DNA of 64,000 bases from Candidatus Dormiibacterota bacterium. Lineage in GTDB: Bacteria; Chloroflexota; Dormibacteria; Dormibacterales; Dormibacteraceae. Both the position numbers and the translations under genes were made by a program. Below are positions 14,463 through 34,403 of this stretch, in pieces. The DNA is taken from the NCBI GenBank assembly GCA_003151935.1, contig PLYZ01000044.1, positions 1 through 64,000 of the forward strand, given 5' to 3'. The number at the start of each line of letters is the position of its first letter. Positions within the stretch are counted from its first letter, which is position 1. The notes below the pieces were generated by a model. That model had not been told where the DNA came from, made no database searches, and saw nothing but the letters and a program-made list of their open reading frames with translations.

Positions 14463-14479
14463 AGGGCCAAACGGCCCCT
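14463..14479. promoter_or_regulatory. Candidate DosR/NarL-type palindrome AGGGCCAAACGGCCCCT
   Basis: Matches GGGNCNNNNGNCCC; divergent intergenic region between the USP and devS-like genes. Confidence 0.5.
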
Positions 14480-16232: not shown

Positions 16233-16892
16233 ATGGCCTCGCATCGACTCCGCATCCTGCTCGTCGACGACCACGAGGTCGTACGCGACGGCGTGAAGGC
16301 CCTCATCAACGCCCACGACGACCTGACTGTGGTCGCCGAGGCCGGGTCGGTGCAGGAAGCCGTCGACCAGGCGGTGAGGACCAAACCGGACGTCGTCGTC
16401 ATGGACGTCCGCCTCGCGGATGGCAGCGGGATCGAGGCCACCCGCGAGATTCGCGCCAGGCTCGAGAAAACGCAGGTGTTGATGCTGACCTCGTTCGCTG
16501 ATGACGAGGCGCTGTTTGCCTCGATCATGGCGGGCGCGGCCGGGTACGTGCTCAAGCAGATCCGGGGCGGCGAGCTGATCCGGGCCATCCGCGAGGTCGG
16601 CGCCGGCAGGAGCCTCCTCGATCCGGAGGTGACCCGATCCGTTCTGGAGCGTCTTCGCAAGGGCAAGACGATGCGGGATGAGAAGCTCGCCCGATTGTCA
16701 GCCCAGGAAGAGCGAATCCTCGTGCTGGTGGCCAAGGGGAAGACCAACGGGCAGATCGGCAAGGAGCTGAAGCTGGCCGAGAAGACAGTGAAGAACTACG
16801 TGTCGACCATCCTGTCGAAGCTCGAGGTTGCTCGCCGGGCGGAGGCTGCCGCCTATCTCGCCAGGCACACCACGCTTCCGGGGTCGCAGTAA
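16233..16892 (+). CDS. NarL/FixJ-type response regulator, DevR/DosR-like
   Basis: LLVDDHEVVRDGV, PDVVVMDVRLADGSGIE, VGAGRSLLDPEV, LAEKTVKNYVSTILSKLEV. Confidence 0.9.
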   Translation: MASHRLRILLVDDHEVVRDGVKALINAHDDLTVVAEAGSVQEAVDQAVRTKPDVVVMDVRLADGSGIEATREIRARLEKTQVLMLTSFADDEALFASIMAGAAGYVLKQIRGGELIRAIREVGAGRSLLDPEVTRSVLERLRKGKTMRDEKLARLSAQEERILVLVAKGKTNGQIGKELKLAEKTVKNYVSTILSKLEVARRAEAAAYLARHTTLPGSQ

Positions 16893-17458: not shown

Positions 17459-18220
17459 CTAAGCCGGGTGTTTCCCGCCGCCGCCAAGGCGGCGGAGAAG
17501 TGATCGCACCGGGTCGAAGTACACGTCGTCCATGCGCTCCTTGAGCGGGATGATCGCGTTGTCCGTGATGTGGATGTGCTCGGGACAGACCTCAGTGCAG
17601 CATTTCGTTACATTGCAGTAGCCGAGCCCGGCCTTTCCCTTCAGGAGCGCGCGCCGGTCGAGGACGTCCTTCGGGTGCATCTCGAGGCTTGCGATCCTGA
17701 CCATGAATCGCGGGCCCTGGAACGCACCCTTCAAATCGTGGGCTCGCAAGACATGACAGACGTCCTGGCACAGGAAGCACTCGATGCATTTGCGAAACTC
17801 CATCACGCGCTCGACGTCCTTCTGCTGCATCCGCCATGGCTCGCTGCTGGAGAGGTCCTTCTCGCTCGGCGTGAATGGCGGTATCTCCTTGTTGACCTCG
17901 TAGTTCCAGCTGACGTCCGTGACGAGGTCCTTGATGACCGGAAACGCCTTCATCGGCCCGACGCTGATCCGGCCCCCGTACTCGGCGATCGGCGTCTTGC
18001 ACATGAGGCGCGGGAAGCCATCGATCTCGGCCGAGCACGACCCGCACTTGGCTGCCTTGCAGTTCCAGCGCACGGCGAGGTCGGACGCCATGTTGGCCTG
18101 CACCCACAGCACGGCGTCGAGGACGACCATGCCCTCCCGAACCGGCACGCGGTAGGAGACGAGCTCGCCGCCTTTCGCGTCGCCTCGCCAGATGTTGAGG
18201 TCGAGGGTGGTCAGCTCCAT
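17459..18220 (-). CDS. sdhB: Succinate dehydrogenase/fumarate reductase iron-sulfur subunit
   Basis: CKAAKCGSCSAEIDG and CIECFLCQDVC, CNVTKCCTEVCPE ferredoxin motifs. Confidence 0.9.
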   Translation of the reverse strand: MELTTLDLNIWRGDAKGGELVSYRVPVREGMVVLDAVLWVQANMASDLAVRWNCKAAKCGSCSAEIDGFPRLMCKTPIAEYGGRISVGPMKAFPVIKDLVTDVSWNYEVNKEIPPFTPSEKDLSSSEPWRMQQKDVERVMEFRKCIECFLCQDVCHVLRAHDLKGAFQGPRFMVRIASLEMHPKDVLDRRALLKGKAGLGYCNVTKCCTEVCPEHIHITDNAIIPLKERMDDVYFDPVRSLLRRLGGGGKHPA

Positions 18221-19987
18221 TTACTCCATCTCCTCCGGCGTGTAAGTCGCATAGGACCGGTGCAAGATCTCGGCGAGATAGCTGGGCATGGTCGGGATGG
18301 GCTCAGCCTCGACGCTCATGCCATGCGGCGTCTGCTTAGTGATGTAGTTGACTGAAGCAAGCTGATCGTCGGTCTTCGGGTAGTCCGACCGAGCGTGAGC
18401 GCCTCGGCTCTCCTTGCGTTCGAGCGCCGACCGCAGCAACGCTTCGGCGTTGACCAGCATCGATCGGATGTCCCACGAGGTGTGCCATCCGGGATTGAAG
18501 GCGAGCGTCGTCGAGCCGCCCGTCCCACACACGTTTGCCCGTTCACGCAGATCCTCGATCTTGACCAGCCCCTCTTTCAGGCCGGCTGCCTCACGAACGA
18601 TCGGCGCGTGCGTCGACATCGTGTCCTGGATCTCCGCGTGCAGCTTGTACGGACTCTCGCCGGCAGGCCGGTCGAAAGGTGCCATGAGCGCCGCGATCGC
18701 CTGCTGCACTTGCGCCGGATCGATCTTTGTGTTGCCGGCCTTCGGGCTCCGCTTCACCGCCTCTGCCGCGGCGTCGCCGGCCCGTTTGCCGAAGACCAGC
18801 AGGTCACTCAGGGAGTTGCCGCCCAGGCGATTGGCCCCGTGCAGCCCCGCCGCGAGCTCGCCCGCGGCGTAGAGGCCGGGAACGTTCGTCGCGCCGGTCT
18901 CGGGCTCAACCCGCACGCCGGCCATCATGTAGTGAAGGGTTGGCGCCACCTCCATCGGCTGCTTGGTGATGTCGACATTTGAAAGTTTCAGGAACTGCTC
19001 GTACATCGACGGTAGCTTGCTCTTGATGAACTCAGGCTTCCTGTGGCTGATGTCAAGGTAAACGCCGCCGTGCGGTGTCCCGCGGCCGGCAATGACCTCC
19101 GAGTTGATGGCGCGGGCCACGACGTCTCGCGACGACAGCTCCATTCGCTCGTGGTCGTATCTCTCCATGAAGCGCTCGCCGTCCTTGTTCCGCAACACGC
19201 CACCCTCGCCGCGCACCCCTTCGGTGACCAGTAGGCCGCGCACGCCCGCGGGCCAGACCATGCCCGTCGGGTGGAACTGGACCATCTCCATGTCACGGAG
19301 CTGCGCGCCGGCGTCGTAGGCGAGCGCAGTCCCGTCGCCCGTGCTCTCCCACGAGTTGGAGGTGACGCGGTACATCTTTCCGGCGCCGCCCGAGGCAAGC
19401 ACGAGCGCGGAGCAGCGATAAAGGATCAGCGAGCCATCCGAGCGCCGGTAGGCGAGCGCGCCGACCACTCGGCCGTCTGCCGTCAGCAGCTTGAACGCCG
19501 TCGTCTCCATGTGGACGTCTACACCGGCGGTGTGCACGGCGCGGTCCTGGAGGGTCCTGATGAGCTCTAGCCCGGTGCGATCCCCGATGTGGGCCAGGCG
19601 CGGATACGTGTGGGCTCCAAACGGCCGCTGGTGGATGCGCCCCTGCCACGTACGGTCGAAAACCGCGCCCCAGCGCTCGAGCTCGATAACCCGATCTGGC
19701 GACTCTTTGGCGTGGATCTCGGCCATCCTCCAATTGTTGATGAGCTTGCCGCCTTTCATCGTGTCGGCGAAGTGCACCTCCCACGAGTCCTGGTAGGCGA
19801 CGTTGTGCATCGCCGCAGCGACGCCGCCTTCTGCCATGACCGTGTGGGCTTTGCCCAGGAGCGACTTGCAGACGACCAGCACGCGCGCACCGGCCTCCGC
19901 CGCCGCGATGGCGCCGCGCAGGCCCGCTCCGCCCGCCCCTAGGATGAGGACGTCGGTCTCGACCGTCTCGTAGGAGGCGGTGCTCAC
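18221..19987 (-). CDS. sdhA: Succinate dehydrogenase flavoprotein subunit
   Basis: LILGAGGAGLRGAIAAAEAGARV, GGVAAAM, HGANRLGGNSLSDLLVFG; start set to GTG 19987 (VSTASYETVE) rather than the 716-aa ORF start. Confidence 0.9.
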   Translation of the reverse strand: MSTASYETVETDVLILGAGGAGLRGAIAAAEAGARVLVVCKSLLGKAHTVMAEGGVAAAMHNVAYQDSWEVHFADTMKGGKLINNWRMAEIHAKESPDRVIELERWGAVFDRTWQGRIHQRPFGAHTYPRLAHIGDRTGLELIRTLQDRAVHTAGVDVHMETTAFKLLTADGRVVGALAYRRSDGSLILYRCSALVLASGGAGKMYRVTSNSWESTGDGTALAYDAGAQLRDMEMVQFHPTGMVWPAGVRGLLVTEGVRGEGGVLRNKDGERFMERYDHERMELSSRDVVARAINSEVIAGRGTPHGGVYLDISHRKPEFIKSKLPSMYEQFLKLSNVDITKQPMEVAPTLHYMMAGVRVEPETGATNVPGLYAAGELAAGLHGANRLGGNSLSDLLVFGKRAGDAAAEAVKRSPKAGNTKIDPAQVQQAIAALMAPFDRPAGESPYKLHAEIQDTMSTHAPIVREAAGLKEGLVKIEDLRERANVCGTGGSTTLAFNPGWHTSWDIRSMLVNAEALLRSALERKESRGAHARSDYPKTDDQLASVNYITKQTPHGMSVEAEPIPTMPSYLAEILHRSYATYTPEEME

Positions 19988-20748
19988 ATCACCCACCGCG
20001 GGTCGTGCAGCACGCCGGCCAGCAGGAGGCGGATGTAGATGTCGGTCCCCGCGACGGAGATCAAGCTCGCCCACGCCCAGCGGTCGTGCTTGATGTTGAG
20101 CACGGTCACGCCCTTCCACAACTTGTGCCGTGCGCGAGCCGCGAGCGAGCACGAGAAGCAGTCGAGGTCTCCGCCGGCCAGGTGCCTGAAGGCGTGGCAG
20201 CCGAAGGTGTAGCCGGACAGCAGGAGCACGTTGGCCAGCATCAGCACGCTGCCCAGGCCGACGCCGAACCGGCCGCCGAAGTCGAACGCGACGATCGCGT
20301 CGAACCAGAGGAAGGCCACCTGTACCACGGTCGCGTAGAACGCGAACCGGTGGAAGTTGTTGAACACCCACGGGAAGGCGGTCTCACCGCGATATCGGCG
20401 GCCGGCCCGCTCTGGCACCGCGCACGAGCGGGGATGCCCGAAGAAGCTCCGGAAATAGGCTTTGCGGTAGTAGTAGCAGCTGAGGCGGAAGACCAGCGGC
20501 GCCCATGCCACCCAGACTCCGGGTGGGATCGGGCCGACCTTGATGAGCGGCGAGTAGAACGGGCTGAGGTACGGGGCGTAGTAGCCCTCGTGCTGGAAGA
20601 ACACGACCCAGATTGCGAAGATGCCGAAGAGGCTGAGAGCGACGACCACGAAGGCCGGATACAGCCAATTCGGCAGGACGCTGTACGGGTTGTGGATCCG
20701 CGGGCGACCTGGGGTTACCTCGCGATCAACCGGCTGGGTAAGCGCCAC
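19984..20748 (-). CDS. Succinate dehydrogenase membrane-anchor-like protein
   Basis: Multiple TM segments, position immediately upstream of sdhA with 4-nt overlap. Confidence 0.7.
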   Translation of the reverse strand: MALTQPVDREVTPGRPRIHNPYSVLPNWLYPAFVVVALSLFGIFAIWVVFFQHEGYYAPYLSPFYSPLIKVGPIPPGVWVAWAPLVFRLSCYYYRKAYFRSFFGHPRSCAVPERAGRRYRGETAFPWVFNNFHRFAFYATVVQVAFLWFDAIVAFDFGGRFGVGLGSVLMLANVLLLSGYTFGCHAFRHLAGGDLDCFSCSLAARARHKLWKGVTVLNIKHDRWAWASLISVAGTDIYIRLLLAGVLHDPRWVM

Positions 20749-25509: not shown

Positions 25510-28209
25510 TCAGCGCGATCCTATAGGCGGTCTGGATGCGCCAGGCTCGAGCCGGATCCTGGCATCGACGACCACCGCTCCCGCAGTGTGCACGACGAGC
25601 GGGTTGAGGTCCATCTCCGCGACTTCGGGATGAGCCTCCACCAGGGCGCTCACCCGGAGCAGCACGTCTTCCAGCGCGGCCACGTCCGCGCGCGGGGCGC
25701 CGCGGTAGCCATCGAGTTGAGGAAATGTCTTCAGCGACCGGACCATGCGGTCCGCGTCGCCCTTCGTGATGGGGGTGATCCGGACCGCCACGTCCTTCAA
25801 CAGCTCTGTTGCAGTGCCGCCGGCCCCGCATGCGAGCACGGGTCCGAAGTGCTGGTCCTGGACCACTCCGACCAGCATCTCGACGCCATCCGGCACCATC
25901 GGCTGGACCTGGAAGCCGGAGACATGGTGCCCGGCGGCTTCCAGGGCGTCGGCCATTTGAGTGGCGGCGTGTTCCACCTGGCTCGCCCCTCTGAGATGCA
26001 GGCGAACGGCCCCGGCATCCGACTTGTGCAGAACTCCTGTCGCGACGGCCTTCAAAGCGATCTCCTCTCCCATCCGCTCGGCCTCACGGCCGGCTTGATC
26101 GGGAGAGCTCGCCTGACGGGTTTCGACGAACGTGATCCCGTAGCAGGTCAGCAGCTCGGAGACCGCGGACGCCTCCAGCCACCCTGCCCCGGACGCGAGG
26201 GCGGCCGCGATGATCCCAGCCGCGCGATCGCCGTCGATGCCGCCGATCTGGGTGACCGTCTCTTCGGGCGCTGAACGCCAGGCGCCGTAGCGGGCGACCA
26301 GGCTCAATGCACGTGCGGCCTCCTCGGGGAACGGGTAGTGCGGAATCCGGACACCGCATGCCTCGATCACGCGCGGTGCGGCCTGCTTCGACATGAACAC
26401 GCTGAGCACGGGGATCGCGCGGGACAGGGCGGCGGCGGCTCGATGGATCGCGCGCACAACCTCTGTGCCTTTTGTGATCAGCGGCGGCGTGAAGATCACG
26501 ATGATGGCGTCGATCTCCTCGCAAGCGGCCAGAACCGAGATCGCCCGCTCGTAGTCTTCGCCATTCGCGGCCGCCAGCATGTCGACCGGATTGCCGGTCG
26601 ACCCTGCAGCGGGCATGGAAGCAGCCAGCGCCTTGCGAACGACCTCCGGAAGGGGCGGCACGACAAGACCGTTGGCCTCGCAAGCGTCGGCACACAGAAT
26701 CGCCGGACCGCCCGCATTGGTCAAGATGGCGACCCGGTTGCCCACGGCCAGGGGTTGGCTGCCCAGAAGCAGCGCGGCATCGAACAGCTCCGCCAGGGTG
26801 TCGGTCCGGATCACGCCGGCTTGCTGGAAAAGAGCATCCACTGTGATGTCGGAGGCAGACAACAGCGCGCCCGTGTGGGAGGAGGTGGCCCTGTTGCCGG
26901 CCTGAGTGCGCCCGCCCTTCACAACCAGGATGGGCTTCGACCGGCTCACTCGTCGCGCGACACGCGCGAACTTGCGCGGATTTCCGAAGGACTCGAGGTA
27001 CAGCATGATCACGTCCGTCTGGGGGTCGCCCTCCCAGTACTGCATGAAGTCGTTGCCGGACAGGTCGGCCTTGTTGCCGACCGACACGAAAGACGAGAGA
27101 CCGGAACCCATAGCCTGAGCGCGAGCCATCACCGCCAGACCGAGGCCGCCGCTCTGCGAGAGAAAGCCGATGCGGCCAGGGACGGGCTTGTCAGGCGCGA
27201 ATGTCGCATCGAGGCTCACCTCCGGCGCGCTGTTGATCACGCCCATGCAGTTGGGGCCCACCAGCCGCATGCCGACCTGGCGGCAGATCTCGACCAGCTC
27301 ACGCTGAAGGCCGGCGCCTTCGGGCCCGGCTTCGGCAAATCCGGCAGAGATCACAACAAGTCCGCGGACTCCTTTCTGGGCGCACTCGCGGGCGACCGTC
27401 GCGACCACCGCGGCGGGAACCGTGACCACCGCCATCTCCACGTCGCCGGGAATTGCCAGCACCGAGGGATAGGAGGGAACGCCTTCGATCTCGGTCGCGG
27501 CGGGGTTCACCGGATATAGAGGGCCGTGGTATCCGTACGCGACGAGGTTGTGTACGACGGCGGCGCCGATGCTTCCGGCCTGCCGCGACGCGCCGATCAC
27601 AGCCACGGACCGCGGCGCAAGCAGGTGGGTCACGGCTGCTACCGCCGCCAGCCGTTCGCGGTCTTCGAACTGGCGGATCCCATCGGGGCCGATCTTGGTC
27701 GGCAGGTCAGCGTGCACCTCGCCCGGTGTAGACCGGGCGTGCACCGGAAAGCCGCTCTCACGGAGCATCTGGAGCATCCGGTGGTTCTCCGGCCGGACCA
27801 CCGCCTCGAACATGTCGAACCCGGCGGTGGCTGCGGCCTCCGCCAGCTGGCCAAGCAGGATCGTGCCCAGGCCCCGACCCTGGTAGGCGTCGGCCACAGC
27901 CAGCGCCATCTCAGCTTTTCGCGGCGCGATCTCGACGTACATCGCGTGTCCGACGATCTGAGCCATCGCACCTGCCACAGCTACGAGGCCGTAGTTGGAC
28001 GTGTAGTTGACGTTGACCATTCTTTGAATCGACGAGTCCGCATTGGCGACGGCCGCGAAGAACCTGAAGACACGGGATTCCAGCGACAGGATCGAGAAGA
28101 AGCGACCGAGCTCGACGGCATCTTCGACGCGCACCGGCCTGATGGTCAGCGTCGACCCATCGCGCAAGACGACCGTCGCCTCGCGATGGGCGGGGTATGC
28201 CGCCGTCAC
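25510..28209 (-). CDS. GNAT acetyltransferase fused to NDP-forming acyl-CoA synthetase-like protein
   Basis: N-terminal GNAT (ADAYQGRGLGTILLGQLAEAA), CoA-binding/succinyl-CoA-ligase-like and ATP-grasp regions; SSHTGALLSASD. Confidence 0.85.
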   Translation of the reverse strand: MTAAYPAHREATVVLRDGSTLTIRPVRVEDAVELGRFFSILSLESRVFRFFAAVANADSSIQRMVNVNYTSNYGLVAVAGAMAQIVGHAMYVEIAPRKAEMALAVADAYQGRGLGTILLGQLAEAAATAGFDMFEAVVRPENHRMLQMLRESGFPVHARSTPGEVHADLPTKIGPDGIRQFEDRERLAAVAAVTHLLAPRSVAVIGASRQAGSIGAAVVHNLVAYGYHGPLYPVNPAATEIEGVPSYPSVLAIPGDVEMAVVTVPAAVVATVARECAQKGVRGLVVISAGFAEAGPEGAGLQRELVEICRQVGMRLVGPNCMGVINSAPEVSLDATFAPDKPVPGRIGFLSQSGGLGLAVMARAQAMGSGLSSFVSVGNKADLSGNDFMQYWEGDPQTDVIMLYLESFGNPRKFARVARRVSRSKPILVVKGGRTQAGNRATSSHTGALLSASDITVDALFQQAGVIRTDTLAELFDAALLLGSQPLAVGNRVAILTNAGGPAILCADACEANGLVVPPLPEVVRKALAASMPAAGSTGNPVDMLAAANGEDYERAISVLAACEEIDAIIVIFTPPLITKGTEVVRAIHRAAAALSRAIPVLSVFMSKQAAPRVIEACGVRIPHYPFPEEAARALSLVARYGAWRSAPEETVTQIGGIDGDRAAGIIAAALASGAGWLEASAVSELLTCYGITFVETRQASSPDQAGREAERMGEEIALKAVATGVLHKSDAGAVRLHLRGASQVEHAATQMADALEAAGHHVSGFQVQPMVPDGVEMLVGVVQDQHFGPVLACGAGGTATELLKDVAVRITPITKGDADRMVRSLKTFPQLDGYRGAPRADVAALEDVLLRVSALVEAHPEVAEMDLNPLVVHTAGAVVVDARIRLEPGASRPPIGSR

Positions 28210-29770: not shown

Positions 29771-29809
29771 AGGGCCGGGGTCCCCATCTGAGTAGGGTCT
29801 TCAGGCCCT
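29771..29809. promoter_or_regulatory. Tandem candidate DosR-like boxes AGGGCCGGGGTCCC and AGGGTCTTCAGGCCCT
   Basis: Second box (29794-29809) fits GGGNCTNNAGNCCC exactly; first is a one-base-shorter variant; TTGACA at 29811-29816; between uspA (-) and cytochrome b operon (+). Confidence 0.55.
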
Positions 29810-29873: not shown

Positions 29874-30026
29874 ATGGATACGCCGGCGACTTACTTTCAC
29901 TGGGGCTTTATCCTTATCTCGGTTCCCAACCTACTCGTGATCGCGGGAATGATCGTTCTCTTTGCGATCGCACTCATCGCACCGTTCCCACACGCTGAGG
30001 GGGACGACGATGGCGGTAACAAATAG
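29874..30026 (+). CDS. Small single-TM protein, first gene of cytochrome b operon
   Basis: MDTPATYFHWGFILISVPNLLVIAGMIVLFAIALIAPFPHAEGDDDGGNK; AAAGGAGA RBS; overlaps the next gene. Confidence 0.7.
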   Translation: MDTPATYFHWGFILISVPNLLVIAGMIVLFAIALIAPFPHAEGDDDGGNK

Positions 30027-30675
30027 CCCTCAAGGGGCAGACCCCGGCGCGGCGGCCCGGCCAGAGTCCAACAGCTGGACGCTGCGCCTCCGTCAGGCGA
30101 TCGACCGACATCTCCCGATGGACCACCTGCTCCCCGACCGGCAGCCCTACTACGTCGGTTCGTGGGTCTACGTTTTCGGCGTCGTCACGATCGCGGCGTT
30201 GGCCTGGGTGATCGCCAGCGGCGTCGTCCTGTCGTTCATGGGACCGCAGTGGTGGCACGACTCAAGGGTCGGCCACTTCTTCAACAGCCTCCACTTCTGG
30301 TCCGTTCAGCTGTTCTTCATCTTCATGGTCCTGCACCTCTGGGGCCAGTACTTCATGGCCGGATGGCGCAGTGGTCGCGCGGCGACCTGGATGATCGGAG
30401 TGATCATCTTTGGAACAAGCATCCTCACCGCCTTCACCGGCTACCTGTCTCAGCAAAACTTCGCGTCGCAGTTCATCGCCATCAACGCCAAGGACGCGAT
30501 GAACGGCGCCGGCATCGGAGCTTTCTTCAACGTTTTGAACTTCGGCCAGATGTATGGGCTGCACGTGATGCTGCTGCCGATCGGGATCACGATCCTCGTG
30601 GTCGCGCACATCGTCATGGTGCGCACGCGCGGCGTTGTGAAACCGATCGACCCCGAAGGAGGCGCACGGCCATGA
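30010..30675 (+). CDS. Cytochrome b6-type N-terminal domain protein
   Basis: H-X13-H (LHFWSVQLFFIFMVLH) and H-X14-H (HVMLLPIGITILVVAH) bis-heme ligand spacing; four TM helices. Confidence 0.87.
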   Translation: MAVTNSPQGADPGAAARPESNSWTLRLRQAIDRHLPMDHLLPDRQPYYVGSWVYVFGVVTIAALAWVIASGVVLSFMGPQWWHDSRVGHFFNSLHFWSVQLFFIFMVLHLWGQYFMAGWRSGRAATWMIGVIIFGTSILTAFTGYLSQQNFASQFIAINAKDAMNGAGIGAFFNVLNFGQMYGLHVMLLPIGITILVVAHIVMVRTRGVVKPIDPEGGARP

Positions 30676-31655
30676 AATCGATGGGCGCGACTCAAGAGGA
30701 GTACTACCGCGGCGTGCGAATGGAGCGCTACGACCTCGTGAAGGAGCTCGTCATAGCCGTTGTGGCAGTCGGCGTCATCGCTTTGATCGGCGCCGCCGTG
30801 CTGTCCTCGCCCGATGTGGCGCCGGTGACGATCGCGACCTGGTCGCAGGCGGACCCGGTGGACTTCGTGACCACCGCCACCGGGGAGCTCGCAGGCTCGA
30901 GCACGAGCGCCGGTTACGGCGCCCCCTACAACTCGGCGGGTCCAGGCCAGAGCTGGGGGCCGATCGCCCCACAGAGCTGGTTTGGAGTGCGTATACCCAT
31001 CGATTCCGCCAACGCATTCGTGATCCAGCCGCTGCAGCGGGCGAGCTTCAGCAATACGACCCTGGGCACAGCGCTCAGCACCTGGCAGAACGCCACAGCC
31101 GATCAGCAGACCACATGGCTGGACGCGTATTCGAAGGCACTCGTCGATGCAACCGTAAGCGACGGCGCGGTGGCCGTTGCTGACGGCGACTATGGCCCGC
31201 TGCCGGTGATGATGTCCAACCTGGTCGGGATCGCCCAGGCGGGTGGGCTCGATGGATTGCTCGTGATCAACGGGCGGTTCTACCAGACCGACTACACGCA
31301 GCCCCTGCTCTTCATGGGCGACGGCGGCTATCTCGCGGGGCTTGCCGACCAGGCGCATCTGACGGGCAGCCTGTGGGGAATGATGAACGAGACCGGCCAG
31401 TACCCCGGCCAGACCTGGCTGTGGCTCTACACGATGTGGTACCAGGTGTTTCCCTTCAACAGCGACACAGGATTCATCGGCGTGAATGCGGGCAACGCTG
31501 ACCTCGGGATCATCATCCTCATGACGCTGCTCACCGTAGCGCTGGCCCTCGTGCCGTTCATTCCGTTCCTGCGCGACATTCCGCGCTGGATCCCCATCCA
31601 CCGCTTGATCTGGCGCCAGTACTACGCCCCACGCAAGGGTGCGGCTCGCACCTAG
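30672..31655 (+). CDS. Hypothetical membrane-anchored subunit of cytochrome b operon
   Basis: ATGA overlap with cytochrome b stop; N-terminal TM, about 220-aa extracytoplasmic region, C-terminal TM. Confidence 0.7.
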   Translation: MKSMGATQEEYYRGVRMERYDLVKELVIAVVAVGVIALIGAAVLSSPDVAPVTIATWSQADPVDFVTTATGELAGSSTSAGYGAPYNSAGPGQSWGPIAPQSWFGVRIPIDSANAFVIQPLQRASFSNTTLGTALSTWQNATADQQTTWLDAYSKALVDATVSDGAVAVADGDYGPLPVMMSNLVGIAQAGGLDGLLVINGRFYQTDYTQPLLFMGDGGYLAGLADQAHLTGSLWGMMNETGQYPGQTWLWLYTMWYQVFPFNSDTGFIGVNAGNADLGIIILMTLLTVALALVPFIPFLRDIPRWIPIHRLIWRQYYAPRKGAART

Positions 31656-31680: not shown

Positions 31681-31707
31681 AAGGGGCCGCGCCGGCGGCC
31701 CCTTTAT
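31681..31707 (+). terminator. Rho-independent terminator
   Basis: aaggggccgc-gccg-gcggccccttt then tattt, after the cytochrome b operon. Confidence 0.75.
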
Positions 31708-34313: not shown

Positions 34314-34403
34314 GGTCATTTCCTTTTGTTGCTCGAAATGGACTGGGCCGGCGCCGTCGGACGGCACCGGTATAAAGGCTGGCCTCATGCCTGGGTTCCA
34401 TCG

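Follow-up and report, generated by a model that had tools for sequence, protein, structure and literature searches.

Three overlapping genes lie on the forward strand of the analysed window, a 64,000-nucleotide stretch of DNA (contig C70; the genome comprises 97 contigs and 2.94 Mb, with an estimated completeness of 99.6%): P1 (positions 29,874–30,026; 50 amino acids (aa), with one hydrophobic helix at aa 20–38), P2 (30,010–30,675; 221 aa, a b6-type cytochrome b with four hydrophobic helices) and P3 (30,672–31,655; 327 aa, with hydrophobic helices near both ends). P1 and P2 overlap by 17 nucleotides and P2 and P3 by 4 (ATGA), and purine-rich stretches resembling ribosome-binding sites were recognized by eye at the three starts (AAGGAG for P1, GAGGGGG for P2 and AAGGAGG for P3). 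The reading frames and overlaps bear out an earlier sequence-only reading, which had described three overlapping genes of these sizes, and the terminator that it placed after the operon corresponds to a GC-rich hairpin with a T-rich tail (31,681–31,704, forward strand), a call owed to its position alone, as the hairpin scan yields 1.4 hairpins per shuffled region. CXXCH is missing from P3, as that reading had it, and from the other two proteins as well; indeed, not one cysteine occurs in the window’s P1, P2 or P3, which excludes haem c, haem cn and Cys-liganded iron–sulfur clusters for these proteins.

The assignment of P2 to the cytochrome b N-domain was confirmed by a match to PF00033 (E = 1.1 × 10−12; Pfam) and by the positions of its histidines, which form the two expected haem-ligand pairs, H95-X13-H109 (30,292–30,336, forward strand) and H185-X14-H200 (30,562–30,609, forward strand; from the alignment), and the solved structures closest to it by sequence are cytochrome b6 chains (PDB sequences). 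The first pair is retained in every aligned relative, a divergent group included, and all four ligands are retained even at 25–30% identity; that the ligands persist over such deep divergence speaks for transmembrane electron transfer being under selection. The Qo site, by contrast, is degraded: the PW of the cd loop is gone from P2, in which a degenerate GYLSQQN (aa 144–150; 30,439–30,459, forward strand) replaces GYxLPW, and the Glu/Asp of PEWY/PDWY is gone from P3. At the alignment position of the b6 haem-cn Cys, P2 of the window has V55, and a Cys is present only in two members of the divergent group (L090 and L091). Tree building placed a 100/100 branch between P2 plus the divergent group and 30 canonical sequences, some of whose branches are long. 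Among NCBIfam models, the highest score of P2 was to ExtP (NF040969) of selenite/tellurite reduction operons, likewise a lone b6-type N-domain without a Rieske protein, but at 57 bits P2 lies far under the curated cut-off of 290 bits, and no Ext partners were seen nearby.

P3 matched nothing in Pfam, NCBIfam or the PDB sequences, and a 52-member P3 set gave no convincing family match in Pfam and none to PF00032. By Pfam, the earlier statement that no recognisable subunit IV is present therefore stands; by profile–profile comparison with subunit IV sequences of the same phylum, it does not. There, helix E of subunit IV aligned with the first ~50 residues of P3 at a score of 36.8; the reversed control scored 15.7, and none of 100 column-shuffled profiles exceeded 17.3. 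With 80 sequences the match recurred (score of 35.8, P = 1.3 × 10−5), and the relationship of the P3 N terminus to this helix of cytochrome bc subunit IV is significant. An additional ‘N versus P2’ match in the 80-sequence comparison was rejected as artefactual, since it stems from fused tails within the alignment of P2. The P3 helix E itself (aa 22–44; 30,735–30,803, forward strand) lies inside the subunit IV-related stretch and is followed by a mostly helical extracytoplasmic domain (30,804–31,475, forward strand) of ~200 residues that stands where the short ef loop would be. This ectodomain has no conserved Cys or His; its predicted structure reached a pLDDT of >90 over much of its length, and a fold search with the P3 model found no match in the PDB (best E = 4).

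The remainder of P3 is harder to place. A family signature, WGMMNETGxYPGQxWLWLYTxWYQ (aa 235–258; 31,374–31,445, forward strand), includes a Glu (E240) that is invariant in 52 of 52 sequences and may be a remnant of the PEWY helix; this region was modelled poorly (pLDDT <50). Model and profile comparison together point to a candidate helix F (aa 273–292; 31,488–31,547, forward strand). The W-LYTxWYQ segment pairs with the PEWY helix and the last helix with helix F, in the right order, but the match is weak (26.9 versus 21.8 reversed, P = 0.0014, with 2 of the 100 shuffles giving anomalous scores of 130); in the first alignment, the helix F match was not significant against the reversed control. 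These comparisons suggest that the P3 C terminus could consist of a PEWY-like helix and helix F, and a counterpart of helix G is absent. The family search for P3 that the sequence-only reading had proposed thus returned no known family, yet P3 is probably a derived subunit IV.

Gene fusions tie the three proteins together. P2 and P3 are fused (~530–550 aa) in genomes that we guess, by their size and sequence, to be Ktedonobacteria-like (L078–L082, L084 and L085) and in several Actinomycetota (for example, Acidithrix ferrooxidans, L151); P1 and P2 are fused in two loci (L011 and L012); and in one genome all three occupy a single reading frame (L049, 7,945–10,146). The P2–P3 and P1–P2–P3 fusions indicate that P1, P2 and P3 form one complex, and they are compatible with the predicted topology, in which P1 would be N-out/C-in (by charge) and both ends of P2 and of P3 would face in. 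The fused proteins are as long as actinobacterial QcrB (of the bcc complex), most of which Foldseek aligns, but their extra length is ectodomain rather than further helices and a tail, and they have no QcrA/QcrC partner. A model of the fused A. ferrooxidans protein matched QcrB and cytochrome b chains (E = 4.9 × 10−6), with poor superposition on QcrB (TM of 0.34, rmsd of 21 Å). With PetB and PetD of b6f/bc complexes, the operon shares a split cytochrome b, two haem-b ligand pairs with X13/X14 spacing, the order of b6 followed by a subunit IV-like gene, topology, a related helix E and b6 chains as the best PDB sequence matches of P2. It differs from them in lacking a Rieske protein, cytochrome f/c, Cys, GYxLPW, the PEWY Glu and helix G, in having a ~200-aa domain for the ef loop and in its extra one-helix subunit, P1.

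The operon is widely distributed. Of the 110 genomes of the class, 64 contain P3, as do 59 in a 400-genome sample of the phylum, and at least 547 relatives in named public genomes were confirmed by sequence. The best 80 of these were labelled Candidatus Dormibacterota, Chloroflexi, Limnocylindrales, Actinomycetota (Solirubrobacterales, Acidimicrobiales, Streptomyces, Actinocrinis and Acidithrix ferrooxidans) and, for a few bins, Acidobacteriota; most named relatives are metagenome bins, so single taxonomic assignments may be wrong. The gene order P1–P2–P3 was retained in nearly all loci. The divergent group (L086, L090 and L091) has P2 and P3 without P1, with the haem ligands retained, and a reverse search from it found the main family (E down to 5 × 10−18). 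A search of plasmids gave no match. By eye, the divergent pair has glutaredoxin-, redoxin- and CcdA-like genes next to it in L086 (2,255–6,123) and metal P-type ATPase-like genes in its vicinity in L090, and in two actinobacterial loci (L160 and L161) the operon comes after CtaA-like (heme A synthase) and CtaB-like (heme O synthase) genes.

Upstream of the operon, between P1 and a divergent Usp gene, lies a 16-bp palindrome of the DevR/OsdR type, AGGGTCTTCAGGCCCT (29,794–29,809; 79 bp upstream of P1), which resembles the OsdR boxes tabulated in PMC5069765. Across 102 non-redundant upstream regions, perfect matches to GGGNCNNNNGNCCC numbered 31 (versus 4.3 in shuffles), and 11 of the 102 regions carried one 70–79 bp from P1 (0.26 expected); matches at ~117 bp come from actinobacterial loci. 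An overall excess of DevR boxes within the window was rejected (6 versus 4.3, the chance level); the evidence is the recurring position. The window’s further perfect palindromes, at this chance-level total, include those at 14,464, 16,160 (about 73 bp upstream of a LuxR-type regulator at 16,233), 17,431 and 34,405 (17 bp upstream of where Zn-ADH starts, at 34,388). Genes of the window include a GAF-domain kinase (14,536; DevS-like), that regulator (DevR-like), Usp, CBS, P-type ATPase, ADP-forming acyl-CoA ligase and Zn-ADH genes, and among the best 80 of the at least 547 loci, a related regulator occurred within 8 kb in 27, and a kinase was recorded for 17. An 899-aa protein of the window (25,513–28,209) fuses a GNAT domain to an ADP-forming acyl-CoA ligase. 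The palindrome type, the GAF kinase and LuxR-type regulator, and the Usp, CBS and Zn-ADH neighbours are all shared with the DevR/DosR and OsdR regulons (PMC5069765), although the word ‘cytochrome’ is absent from the main text of that study and the window comes from a different phylum. Judged from these sequence features, the operon is probably under DevR/OsdR-type, hypoxia/dormancy control, a point that the sequence-only reading missed.

That reading had also found neither a Rieske protein nor a cytochrome c in the operon, and the wider comparison agrees: neither is encoded among the three genes, and the neighbours of the operon loci include no recurrent redox partner. Looked for elsewhere in the genome, as had been proposed, both were found: a separate, ordinary operon on contig C69 encodes a Rieske protein with its own b6 (with Cys) and subunit IV (with PDWY) and keeps every one of the features missing from P2 and P3, the cd loop, the haem-cn Cys and the PEWY/PDWY acid, and the genome’s one cytochrome c match is on contig C62. 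The canonical subunit IV (L061, 9,696–10,376; G000, contig C69; PDWY) was not reached by PF00032 at E = 0.001, so in this family even the ordinary bc complex is a divergent one. By hand count, a canonical cytochrome b C-domain also occurs in 35 of the 47 P3-positive genomes in families f2–f4 of the class, suggesting that the P1–P3 complex adds to the ordinary bc complex rather than replacing it. A second bc-type complex of the usual kind, borrowing the C69 Rieske protein and C62 cytochrome c, could draw on components that the genome does encode, but this Rieske gene is already matched to b6 and subunit IV genes with an intact PDWY, the PW loop and PEWY Glu are missing from P2 and P3, and the large inserted domain appears to occupy the outer face; we regard such borrowing as very improbable. 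The idea of a Rieske-less b6-type complex of new composition, as originally put forward, is upheld by the conservation, the fusions, the lack of a redox partner nearby and the separate bc operon, and needs amending in that P3 is not wholly unrelated to known subunits, being probably a derived subunit IV.

Two further roles have to be weighed. The complex could serve a dehydrogenase as its membrane anchor or quinone module, for example the nearby succinate dehydrogenase, whose sdhAB-like genes (17,459–20,371) recur near the operon in close relatives; because a membrane-protein gene (19,984–20,748) is already part of the sdh cluster and this cluster accompanies the operon only in the window’s family, most other loci being without sdh, this candidate was rejected and we give it hardly any weight. 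The sdh-like cluster as a whole (17,459–20,748) comprises an iron–sulfur subunit (Fer2_3/Fer4_8), a 716-aa open reading frame in the flavoprotein position and the membrane protein, which has a GPYLSPFYSP-type sequence in relatives. The main rival is that the complex is not a catalyst at all, and would act either as a haem-based redox or gas sensor or as an assembly or hibernation factor associated with the ordinary bc complex or oxidase under hypoxia. An ectodomain without a redox ligand, the lack of a recurrent redox partner, DevR-type control, the degraded Qo site and the frequent presence of a canonical C-domain alongside would all fit such a role; the four haem ligands, retained at 25–30% identity, point instead to selection for transmembrane electron transfer, and we consider sensing or hibernation unlikely overall.

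The best explanation of the whole, to which we assign a probability of roughly 0.6, is a Rieske-free quinone–haem b complex derived from the b6/subunit IV core and induced by a DevR/OsdR-type regulator at low oxygen. The homology and composition of the complex are well supported by the sequence comparisons, and the quinone chemistry, the direction of electron flow and the partner are what we infer. Specifically, P1–P2–P3 would be one membrane complex whose ancestor was the core (cytochrome b6 and subunit IV) of a Rieske–cytochrome b complex; P3 may end in the PEWY helix and helix F, with helix G lost, and an ef loop expanded to ~200 residues may cap the place at which the Rieske head would dock. 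Ordinary bifurcation is unlikely because Rieske protein, cytochrome c and Qo motifs are all missing; lacking a high-potential branch, the complex would be incapable of a normal bifurcating Q cycle, and electrons may instead cross the membrane via haems bL and bH, between cytoplasmic-side menaquinol and a partner at the capped outer site. The DevR/OsdR-type regulator would induce the complex when oxygen is scarce, and its role would probably be redox balance or low-level energy conservation in dormancy. More tentatively, and with somewhat less than even confidence, we propose a Rieske-free cytochrome b/subunit IV class spanning Chloroflexota and Actinomycetota, in which the cap domain would replace the Rieske docking surface and the complex would carry out oxygen-limited, quinone-linked transmembrane electron transfer without Q-cycle bifurcation.

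We found no description of a Rieske-less cytochrome b of this kind, of P3-type proteins or of the regulon link in the open-access literature, which is not proof of absence. It is usual to regard the Rieske protein and the cytochrome b/subunit IV core as inseparable, and a widespread, conserved lineage that has kept both b haems and lost the Rieske protein, the Qo motifs and (in the window) every Cys would offer a natural test of what this core does without bifurcation. If the regulation holds, the dormancy response of abundant soil bacteria, among them the culturable Streptomyces and Acidithrix, would also gain a respiratory component.
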